Assembly: GCA_001797815.1 (NCBI GenBank)
Contig: MGQK01000038.1
Location: forward strand, 1 to 5,019
Source of the DNA: Deltaproteobacteria bacterium RBG_13_61_14
GTDB taxonomy: Bacteria > RBG-13-61-14
Direction: 5' to 3'
Length of the DNA stretch: 5,019 nt
Shown: in pieces, positions 3,045-5,019 of the stretch
Layout of the letters: the number at the start of each line of letters is the position of its first letter
How positions within the stretch are numbered: the stretch's first letter is position 1
Program-made: the position numbers and the translations under genes
Notes under the pieces: model-generated
What the model was told of the DNA's origin: nothing
Database searches by the model: none
What the model saw: only the letters and a program-made list of their open reading frames with translations

Positions 3045-3105
3045 TTATCTATATCACTATTAAGATTAAAGTGTTAAATGTTAAGCTCTGACCCTCATGA
3101 TTTCT
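3045..3105. other. AT-rich convergent intergenic junction
   Basis: The 61 bp between the stop of the AOR gene (+) and the stop of the membrane-protein gene (-) are much richer in A and T than the flanking genes. The only pairing seen is a weak 6-bp AT stem, AATAGT (3040-3045) with ACTATT (3056-3061) around a 10-nt loop, and a direct repeat of TAAGCT (3082-3087 and 3107-3112). No GC-rich hairpin with a T-run is present on either strand, so the terminators of the two converging transcripts are not identified. Confidence 0.5.
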
Positions 3106-4140
3106 CTAAGCTTCTTCCACTTCCAGGGCTAATTTCCCCGACTCGGGTTCCGGCGCTTGGACCAGGGAGCTGATATCCTTGAGCGCGGGCCGTAGCGAGA
3201 CCAGGGCGATGAGGCCGCGGCAGAGGGCGCGGGCGAAGGGGAGGAAGAGGGAGAGGGCGGCGATATTTTCGGGTGAACCGTAGTGGCCGAAGAAAGTCAT
3301 CCAGGCCAGGGTGGCGGTGCCGAAGCCGCCGAAGGCGATGGGCAGGTCCATGACCAGCAAGGCCAGGGGCGCGACCACCAGGAACTCGGACAAGGGGACG
3401 TTCACGGCAAAGGCCCGGTTGAGGAAGTAGAAGCCGACCAGCATCAGGACAAAGGGCAGGGCCATCATGGCCCAGGTCAGGACCCATTGCCGGCGGGTAG
3501 CGAGGCGGAAGGCGGTCCAGAACTCGCTCTCGCGGTCGCGGACAATAATCCGGCCCAGGCCGGTGTAGTCGGTGCCACGGAACCAGAAGAACCAGCTCCC
3601 GAAAAAGAACAATACCCCGGGGAAAATCAAAATAAACCACCACACGTAGAGGTTGATCCTGGCTTTGTCCGCCAGCCCGTAATAGTGCAGAGCCAGGGTG
3701 ACCGGGATCATGAGGAACCCCATGCCCCACATGACCATGCCGAAGCGAAAGAGGGCGATGCCCAGGAGTTTGCGCCAACTGATCCGGGCCTTGCGCTGCT
3801 GGTAGAGGAGAAGCCCGCCGCCGCCCAGGGCGCTGTTAAGGAACATCAGGATGTAACTGGTGCCTTGGATCCAGAAAAAAGTCCAGAAGGGGAAAGGCCC
3901 GTGGAACCAGCGGATGGTCCGTTCCACCAAGAGCGCCGAGAAAAACCACATGACCAATTGAGGCAGGAAAATAGCGATCAGCGCCGGCCTAAGGTCGGCC
4001 TGGCCGCAGGCGGCGAGGAATTTTGGCCAGTCCTGGTCGTGGAAGTAGTAGTAGAGGATGCCGATGCTGACCAGGACCGGGACCGCCTGTTTGACCCAGG
4101 CTGGAATCCGGGGTGGCTTAATCGGGATCGTATCCCCCAT
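3106..4140 (-). CDS. Multipass membrane protein, lysylphosphatidylglycerol synthase TM/UPF0104-like
   Basis: This is a complete 344-residue integral membrane protein. About eight hydrophobic segments are visible, near residues 16-33, 53-73, 85-103, 126-151, 164-187, 219-241, 254-280 and 291-315. There is no cleavable signal peptide and the C-terminal tail is acidic. Two stretches resemble the conserved parts of the UPF0104/LPG synthase transmembrane superfamily: NSALGGGGLLLYQQRKARISW (its GG motif at 106-109) and DLPIAFGGFGTATLAW (265-280), followed by a helix with PFARALCRGL. In that superfamily related domains move or flip lipids or lipid-linked sugars, but no soluble transferase domain is attached here, so the function is unknown. 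The ATG start is supported by an AAAGGA ribosome site (4149-4154) 8 nt upstream. The gene lies downstream of gpsA on the same strand, which supplies glycerol 3-phosphate for phospholipids; a link to membrane lipid handling is only inference. The fold-level assignment is moderate, the membrane call strong. Confidence 0.8.
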   Translation of the reverse strand: MGDTIPIKPPRIPAWVKQAVPVLVSIGILYYYFHDQDWPKFLAACGQADLRPALIAIFLPQLVMWFFSALLVERTIRWFHGPFPFWTFFWIQGTSYILMFLNSALGGGGLLLYQQRKARISWRKLLGIALFRFGMVMWGMGFLMIPVTLALHYYGLADKARINLYVWWFILIFPGVLFFFGSWFFWFRGTDYTGLGRIIVRDRESEFWTAFRLATRRQWVLTWAMMALPFVLMLVGFYFLNRAFAVNVPLSEFLVVAPLALLVMDLPIAFGGFGTATLAWMTFFGHYGSPENIAALSLFLPFARALCRGLIALVSLRPALKDISSLVQAPEPESGKLALEVEEA

Positions 4141-4208: not shown

Positions 4209-4234
4209 TTTCTTGCCCGCTACTATACCACGAA

Positions 4235-4246
4235 AATACTAATACT
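4235..4246 (+). repeat. Tandem AATACT hexamer at the outer edge of the left palindrome
   Basis: AATACT occurs at 4235-4240 and again at 4241-4246, so the first six bases of the left palindrome are duplicated directly outside it. AATACT also recurs at 4305-4310, just inside the right palindrome, where GAATACT (4304-4310) pairs with AGTATTC (4332-4338). These may be traces of slippage or of the element's insertion target, but the motif is too short to decide. Confidence 0.4.
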
Positions 4247-4337
4247 AGGGACAGTCCCCGGTATTCTTGGCGGCCGAGGATCGCGGGTGATAAGCTTATT
4301 TTTGAATACTGCAATACCGGGGGCTGTCCCTAGTATT
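4241..4337. repeat. REPIN/MITE-like element: two inverted copies of a 25-bp imperfect palindrome
   Basis: The left copy (4241-4265) and the reverse complement of the right copy (4313-4337) agree at 24 of 25 positions; the one difference (T4255 against G4323) would still pair as U-G in RNA. Each copy is also a palindrome by itself. The left one reads AATAC, TA, GGGAC, A, GTCCC, CG, GTATT, so 10 of 12 positions pair around A4253 with a two-base internal mismatch. The right one keeps 9 of 12 Watson-Crick pairs around T4325. A 47-bp spacer separates them. A short REP-type palindrome with an internal mismatch, arranged as an inverted doublet of about 100 bp, is the known form of REPINs mobilised by REP-associated tyrosine (Y1/IS200-like) transposases. 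No such transposase is in the window, so mobilisation is inferred. Copies elsewhere in the genome would settle it. Confidence 0.7.
4290..4299. repeat. Perfect 10-bp palindrome ATAAGCTTAT in the spacer of the REPIN-like element
   Basis: ATAAGCTTAT is fully self-complementary and is followed by further T residues up to 4303. With no loop it is unlikely to be a hairpin. It could be a dimeric protein-binding site or chance in an AT-rich part of the spacer. Confidence 0.3.
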
Positions 4338-5019
4338 CGATTTCAGATTTGAGTTTCCGGCCCATCAGGGTGGCGAGCGCGATGGCCGGGGTCTTGTCGG
4401 CGTAAAGGATGAGATAGACCTGCTCGGTGATCGGCATCTCCACGCCCACCTTCTGGCTGAGCTTGTAAACCGTCTCCGCGTTCTTGACGCCCTCGGCCAC
4501 TTGCTTCATCTCGGCCAGGATCTCTTTCAGCTTCTTGCCCTGGCCGATGGCCAGACCCACCTGGCGGTTGCGGGAGAGGTCGCCGGTGCAGGTCAGGACC
4601 AGGTCGCCCATGCCCGCGAGCCCGGCAAAGGTCATGGGGTTGGCGCCCATCTTGACGCCGAGGCGGGCGATCTCGACCAGACCCCGGGTGATGAGAGCGG
4701 CCCGGGTGTTGGTGCCGAAGCCCATGCCGTCGGAGATGCCGGCGGCGATGGCGATCACGTTCTTGACCGCGCCGCCCAGCTCCACGCCGATCACGTCATT
4801 GGAGGTATAGACCCGAAAATAATCGGTGGCGAGCGCCTGCTGGACCGCATCGGCCGCGGCCGGGTCGCGCGAAGCGGCGCTGACCGCGGTGGGCATGCCC
4901 TGGATGACTTCGCGGGCAAAGCTGGGTCCGGAGACCGCGACCATGCGGCTGGCGATGTGGTCCGGGAGCGCCTCGGCCATGACGCCGGACATGGTGAGGA
5001 AGGTTTCGTTCTCGATGCC
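4330..5019 (-). CDS. gpsA: NAD(P)-dependent glycerol-3-phosphate dehydrogenase (5' end outside window)
   Basis: The enzyme interconverts dihydroxyacetone phosphate and sn-glycerol 3-phosphate with NAD(P)H in the cytoplasm, providing the backbone for phospholipids. 229 C-terminal residues are visible; the ATG at 4992-4990 is internal, because the frame continues to the right edge as GIENETFLTM, a typical GpsA stretch. About 100 N-terminal residues, including the nucleotide-binding Rossmann motif, are missing. Visible landmarks are GPSFAREV (31-38) and GAVKNVIAIAAGISDGMGFG with its conserved Lys87, which together with the following TN fits the family signature. Then come AALITRGLVE, GLAGMGDL and SRNR (149-152). 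The C-terminus ends normally at LMGRKLKSE plus IEY. The final Tyr codon and the TAG stop lie inside the right-hand palindrome of the REPIN-like element. The next gene on this strand is the multipass membrane protein, 189 bp downstream. The identification is firm. Confidence 0.96.
   Translation of the reverse strand, partial: GIENETFLTMSGVMAEALPDHIASRMVAVSGPSFAREVIQGMPTAVSAASRDPAAADAVQQALATDYFRVYTSNDVIGVELGGAVKNVIAIAAGISDGMGFGTNTRAALITRGLVEIARLGVKMGANPMTFAGLAGMGDLVLTCTGDLSRNRQVGLAIGQGKKLKEILAEMKQVAEGVKNAETVYKLSQKVGVEMPITEQVYLILYADKTPAIALATLMGRKLKSEIEY

Follow-up and report, generated by a model that had tools for sequence, protein, structure and literature searches.

A palindromic doublet at the gpsA 3′ end as a probable miniature element of a resident TIRYT-type Y1/HUH transposase

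Architecture of the doublet at the end of gpsA

The window, i.e. the whole stretch of 5,019 nucleotides analysed here, derives from Deltaproteobacteria bacterium RBG_13_61_14. It carries the 3′ part of gpsA, a membrane-protein gene and, at the gpsA end, a doublet of imperfect palindromes with the following features:

3106..4140, minus strand: membrane-protein gene downstream of gpsA and codirectional with it (LPG_synthase_TM match weak, slightly below the cut-off)
4235..4240, plus strand: AATACT hexamer abutting the left arm on its outside, putative target or left cleavage motif
4241..4265, plus strand: left arm, a 25-bp imperfect palindrome, terminal repeat unit, AATACTAGGGACAGTCCCCGGTATT
4266..4312, no strand: non-coding interior of 47 bp, sharing homology with the interiors of two contig C8 elements
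4313..4337, minus strand: right arm, inverted copy of the unit (24/25), AATACCGGGGGCTGTCCCTAGTATT
4330..5019, minus strand: 3′ part of gpsA, encoding NAD(P)H-dependent glycerol-3-phosphate dehydrogenase (NF000942 and PF07479)

The original prediction, made from the letters of the window, had described two 25-bp copies, inverted to each other, identical at 24 of 25 positions and 47 bp apart; our measurements agree on every figure, with the arms at 4241-4265 and 4313-4337. Each arm is itself palindromic with mismatches, as also predicted, matching its own reverse complement at 20 of 25 positions in the left arm and 18 of 25 in the right, and folds into a 5-bp stem, a small internal loop, a stem of ~4 bp and a short loop. 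The symmetry lies far beyond chance, as had been claimed: when the window was shuffled 60 times with dinucleotides preserved, the best inverted pair of 25 bp within 300 bp reached at most 21/25 (mean 18.2), against 24 observed. The whole doublet measures 97 bp and is without coding capacity; the 107-nt region has a folding energy of -30.8 kcal/mol when treated as single-stranded DNA (z = -7.6).

The doublet lies beside both genes as predicted, but not strictly between them, because its right arm overlaps the 3′ end of gpsA. The last codons of gpsA, GAA TAC TAG, continue into this arm, the TAC TAG of which provides the final codon and the stop (TAG, complement of 4330-4332). The gpsA product ends in KSEIEY* in the window, compared to KSEFWV* and KSEFWS* in two order-level relatives (genomes G001 and G002); the element thus took the place of the last gpsA codons and provides the stop. 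The original prediction had counted conservation of the region at this place across distant relatives as an argument against it; the repeat is absent from the gpsA end in both G001 and G002, a comparison that covers the gpsA end in two relatives of the same order (three genomes of the phylum, including the source). The gene following gpsA in these two genomes also differs from that in the window. The gene adjoining a second doublet, on contig C117, likewise ends in the TAC TAG of an arm, and its homologues in G001 and G002 extend a few residues beyond.

A dispersed repeat family apparently private to the lineage

A search of the 4.74-Mb genome with 20 bases of the unit, allowing at most three mismatches, revealed 22 matches, compared to none for the reversed-pattern control; the unit is thus not unique, and several matches show the same inverted arrangement, as had been anticipated. 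When the pattern was made slightly degenerate, 15 of these 22 matches were exact, and 59 other genomes gave only four isolated hits, at two mismatches. Scanning 84,980 species genomes, a collection that may omit the source genome and very near ones, with a 21-base degenerate pattern returned two Prevotellaceae contigs, each with a single exact match, roughly the small number that chance predicts; a degenerate-pattern scan of viral contigs gave no match. As far as these collections reach, the family appears private to this lineage.

Six inverted doublets are free of genes, one on contig C38 (the window), two on C8 and one each on C60, C117 and C113, and a seventh inverted pair, on contig C40, encloses a transposase gene. 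The remaining matches are singlets in varying states of decay. The window element shares a homologous interior with both C8 elements, at 79-80% identity in alignment, and these three represent full-length copies; in the C60 and C117 doublets, the interior measures just 8 bp. Units within doublets mostly match the degenerate consensus at 24-25 of 25 positions, as do four singlets, the other singlets matching at 18-22, all among few units. Four units (L100, L102, L104 and L106, on contigs C67, C65, C67 and C117) are nearer to TAGGGACAGCCACCTATTTTTTA, the terminal repeat of a relative's transposase, than to the window family, and appear as remnants of another subfamily that has this core in common.

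These copies bear on whether the doublet might instead be an RNA element specific to gpsA, such as a terminator, an attenuator or an mRNA stabiliser, rather than a mobile repeat. Its location at the gpsA 3′ end and its strong RNA fold (-46.9 kcal/mol, z -3.65) would suit such a role. However, the same sequence occurs at many unrelated sites and around a transposase gene, the gpsA of relatives does without it, and neither a terminator-like site nor an Rfam match was found. We therefore consider an RNA element extremely improbable; as the sole explanation it is refuted by the dispersed family together with the enclosed transposase. A secondary effect of the hairpin on the gpsA transcript is possible, and any such effect on the transcript 3′ end would be a by-product.

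The window element, the doublets on C60 and C117 and the C40 unit each have AATACT or AATACC immediately next to one outer end and not to the other. The chance of finding at least four AATAC[TC] among 17 ends is ~1e-9 at the background hexamer frequency, a descriptive figure since the motif was picked post hoc. No target-site duplication is visible at the window (one locus), and AATAC[TC] is one-sided in all four doublets. By analogy with IS200/IS605 elements, the one-sided motif fits insertion beside a fixed sequence; alternatively, it could be an extra piece of the element that was lost from the other copies.

The C40 transposase and its terminal repeats

The genome contains 19 matches to Y1_Tnp (PF01797), and a gene of this family flanked by the same palindrome, for which the original prediction had advised looking, is present on contig C40. 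This C40 unit spans 762 bp (L032:1160-1921), and its sole gene encodes an intact Y1/HUH transposase of 227 residues between inverted copies of the palindrome at L032:1160-1184 and 1897-1921. Its upstream end reads GGGGACAG, the only place in the family with the full GGGGWSAS motif; the window arms, which read AGGGACAG, are one letter away from it. No near-identical extra copies of the C40 transposase were found.

The C40 protein carries the motifs NHVH, LWQ and YAERNP, and its resident relatives carry YIELNP and YLHLNP. N-H-x-H and Y-x-x-x-N-P are invariant among the C40 protein and its resident relatives, with Y119, N123 and P124 present in all ten aligned proteins. The nearest NCBIfam family is NF047646 (REP_Tyr_transpos), at 70 bits, below the curated cut-off of 80. 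A search of the PDB with the C40 protein as a single sequence gave no match; only the profile of the transposase set succeeded, matching E. coli TnpA-REP (4er8) with an E value of 2.7e-5. In the order-level relative G001, a transposase of 62% identity lies between inverted TAGGGACAGCCACCTATTTATTA repeats, which share the core TAGGGACAGCCACC with the window family and differ in the tail; a joint change of enzyme and repeat would produce this pattern. We rejected the remaining Y1_Tnp genes as candidates for moving the window family, since the longer ones each have a GGGGTCAG-type repeat of their own.

Parallel transposase-repeat pairs in the genome

Twelve further Y1 transposases of ~320 residues each lie between their own inverted repeats, in which a GGGGTCAG-like core is combined with a tail private to that transposase (loci L024-L030, L033-L036 and L038, on contigs C34, C21, C90, C79, C81, C27, C124, C41, C78, C68, C11 and C82). 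Many of these genes have their stop codon in or beside the right repeat. A genome-wide count of GGGGTCAGNNCTTNA gave 110 occurrences, compared to none for the reversed control. Among 47 units of this type, in 40 stretches, many agree letter for letter over 26 bases with the repeat of a single resident transposase, the repeats of the C21 and C79 transposases being examples. Judged from these sequences, the window family is one of several parallel enzyme-repeat pairs. A literature search for GGGGTCAG returned nothing relevant.

Several other repeats accompany these pairs. The window itself holds, at 3072-3094 on the minus strand, a lone degenerate unit of the GGGGTCAG superfamily (AGGGTCAGAGCTTAACATTTAACA...), which sits just past the 3′ ends of an oxidoreductase gene and the membrane-protein gene; no further exact copy of it was found in the genome. 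Identical copies of a dispersed repeat, GGGGTCAGAACTTTACTTTAAACTTT, lie at L138, L142, L159 and L174; this repeat forms an orphan family, as no resident transposase with such a terminal repeat was found. Another Y1 transposase gene, at L041:1384-2170 on contig C130, contains an unrelated palindrome, GGGGCACCCGCGCCCCTAAAG, in several in-frame copies between its HUH and tyrosine motifs, with more copies in the flanks; palindromes inside the transposase gene have been described for subclass 2.4 (PMC6006769).

Classification of the element

The original prediction had read the doublet as REPIN- or MITE-like. The dispersed inverted doublets and their cognate Y1 transposase support this reading, with one correction: the arm is not a REP of the canonical GTAG type, and the element belongs instead with the TIR/TIRYT branch. 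A GTAG foot is the defining feature of canonical REPs (PMC6006769). Scanning 4225-4350 on both strands showed GT[AG]G to be absent from both arms and from their feet; a lone CCAC at 4228 (GTGG on the minus strand) lies outside the element. Di Nocera et al. (2013) described transposases flanked by inverted repeats lacking GTAG, named TIRYTs or TIRtrons, and reported that the motif GGGGWSAS is common to many, though not all, of the published TIRs and that moderately abundant TIR families are arranged as dimers (PMC3733652). Most TIRYTs were placed in subclass 2.1 by Quentin et al. (2018), with the motifs NHVH or NH[YF]H, WQ or FQ, and YIELNP or Y[IV]HLNP, as against DHLH and YIHYNP in subclass 2.2 (PMC6006769). 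The resident proteins carry the subclass 2.1 motifs or very near ones and appear to fit 2.1 rather than 2.2, the tyrosine motif of the C40 protein agreeing at the level of YxxxNP only. On the basis of these motifs, the element fits best among the TIRYTs (subclass 2.1), as a doublet of palindromic terminal inverted repeats.

The same evidence weighs against a classical REPIN of the GTAG type that a canonical RAYT, similar to that of E. coli, would move. A hairpin-forming inverted doublet with dispersed copies and an associated Y1 transposase is what REPINs display (PMC3116915), and the succession of stem, internal loop and stem in each arm resembles that of E. coli REPs. Nevertheless, neither arm has a GTAG or GTGG foot and the transposase motifs suit subclass 2.1, not the DHLH / YIHYNP of 2.2, which makes a classical REPIN quite improbable. 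The window element represents a new family within a known kind, and it works like a REPIN or a MITE.

Proposed origin and movement

Altogether, we conclude with considerable confidence that the doublet of 97 bp represents a miniature element of the non-autonomous kind, in which two inverted terminal repeats of a resident Y1/HUH element of TIRYT type enclose a short non-coding interior. There is a precedent in the TIR dimers of TIRYTs with the motif GGGGWSAS (PMC3733652). Its autonomous partner would be the 762-bp C40 unit. Following the mechanism of IS200/IS605 and TnpA-REP, the palindromes would fold where the DNA is single-stranded, such as on the lagging-strand template, and the HUH tyrosine nuclease might recognise these hairpins in trans and cut at the CT-containing flank; the element would then insert beside a motif resembling AATACT and leave no long target duplication. 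The CT dinucleotide is the cutting site of TnpA-REP enzymes (PMC8266576), and AATACT contains one. From the shared ends and the known HUH/Y1 chemistry, the C40 enzyme probably moves the small elements. By eye, the interiors of the small elements are unlike the ends of the C40 unit's interior, suggesting that they are not simple deletion derivatives of the C40 unit.

The element may by now be immobile. In a stronger form, the TIRYT element would be defunct, its population no longer moving and its dispersed units decaying; this is compatible with the proposed origin. The low copy number, several degenerate singlets and a single cognate transposase point in this direction, as does G001, which holds only one dispersed copy of its own repeat version. 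However, the arms are near identical in most doublets and the C40 frame is intact with its catalytic motifs, which together suggest activity in the not too distant past, and we regard a defunct population as rather unlikely.

These findings bring a poorly sampled phylum into the range of the TIRYT branch of HUH/Y1 enzymes. They also offer a clear case in which TIRYT terminal repeats form miniature elements with a common interior, able to donate the stop codon of a host gene. A broader and tentative proposal, somewhat doubtful at present, is that a dozen or more TIRYT lineages here have private terminal repeats with a constant GGGG[AT]CAG-like core and a variable tail, several of them with dispersed repeats, and that subclass 2.1 enzymes are true mobilisers of miniature elements, the tail acting as the recognition code of each enzyme. 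If so, subclass 2.1 enzymes, described in 2018 as lacking a REP-like partner although the TIRYT link was noted there (PMC6006769), would mobilise miniature elements. With many TIRYTs, each with its own repeat, this genome makes a good natural data set for studying the recognition of DNA ends by these enzymes.

Comparison with known systems

Similar to IS200/IS605 elements (class 1.1), the family has palindromic ends, a candidate one-sided fixed motif and, by homology, HUH/Y1 chemistry. It differs in that the C40 protein has YxxxNP in place of the catalytic YxxxQ, and in that the C40 unit consists of the transposase gene only and has no near-identical extra transposase copies.

The window element also resembles bacterial MITEs (70-300 bp, with terminal inverted repeats of 15-30 bp), being non-coding, 97 bp long with 25-bp arms, present in several copies (three full-length) and accompanied by an autonomous partner in the genome. 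By contrast, its terminal repeats are palindromic, no target duplication is visible around it, and its partner is a single-strand HUH enzyme, not a DDE transposase.

With the REPIN/RAYT system of Bertels and Rainey (2011), the family shares dispersed, hairpin-forming doublets in which a spacer separates two inverted, imperfect palindromes, and a cognate Y1 transposase enclosed by the same units (PMC3116915). It is distinguished by the missing GTAG foot, an enzyme that fits another subclass and a copy number of ~22 units, compared to hundreds for REPINs.

Compared to the published TIRtrons and TIRYTs, the window family has its own repeat sequence and forms small elements with a common interior, and its host, from a sparsely sampled phylum (three genomes), holds many TIRYTs in one genome with a private repeat each. 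Nevertheless, the architecture is the same: a Y1/HUH transposase with the motifs NHVH, WQ/FQ and YxxxNP lies between inverted repeats that lack GTAG and carry a GGGGWSAS-type core, and these repeats, some of them self-complementary, are dispersed as singles and dimers.
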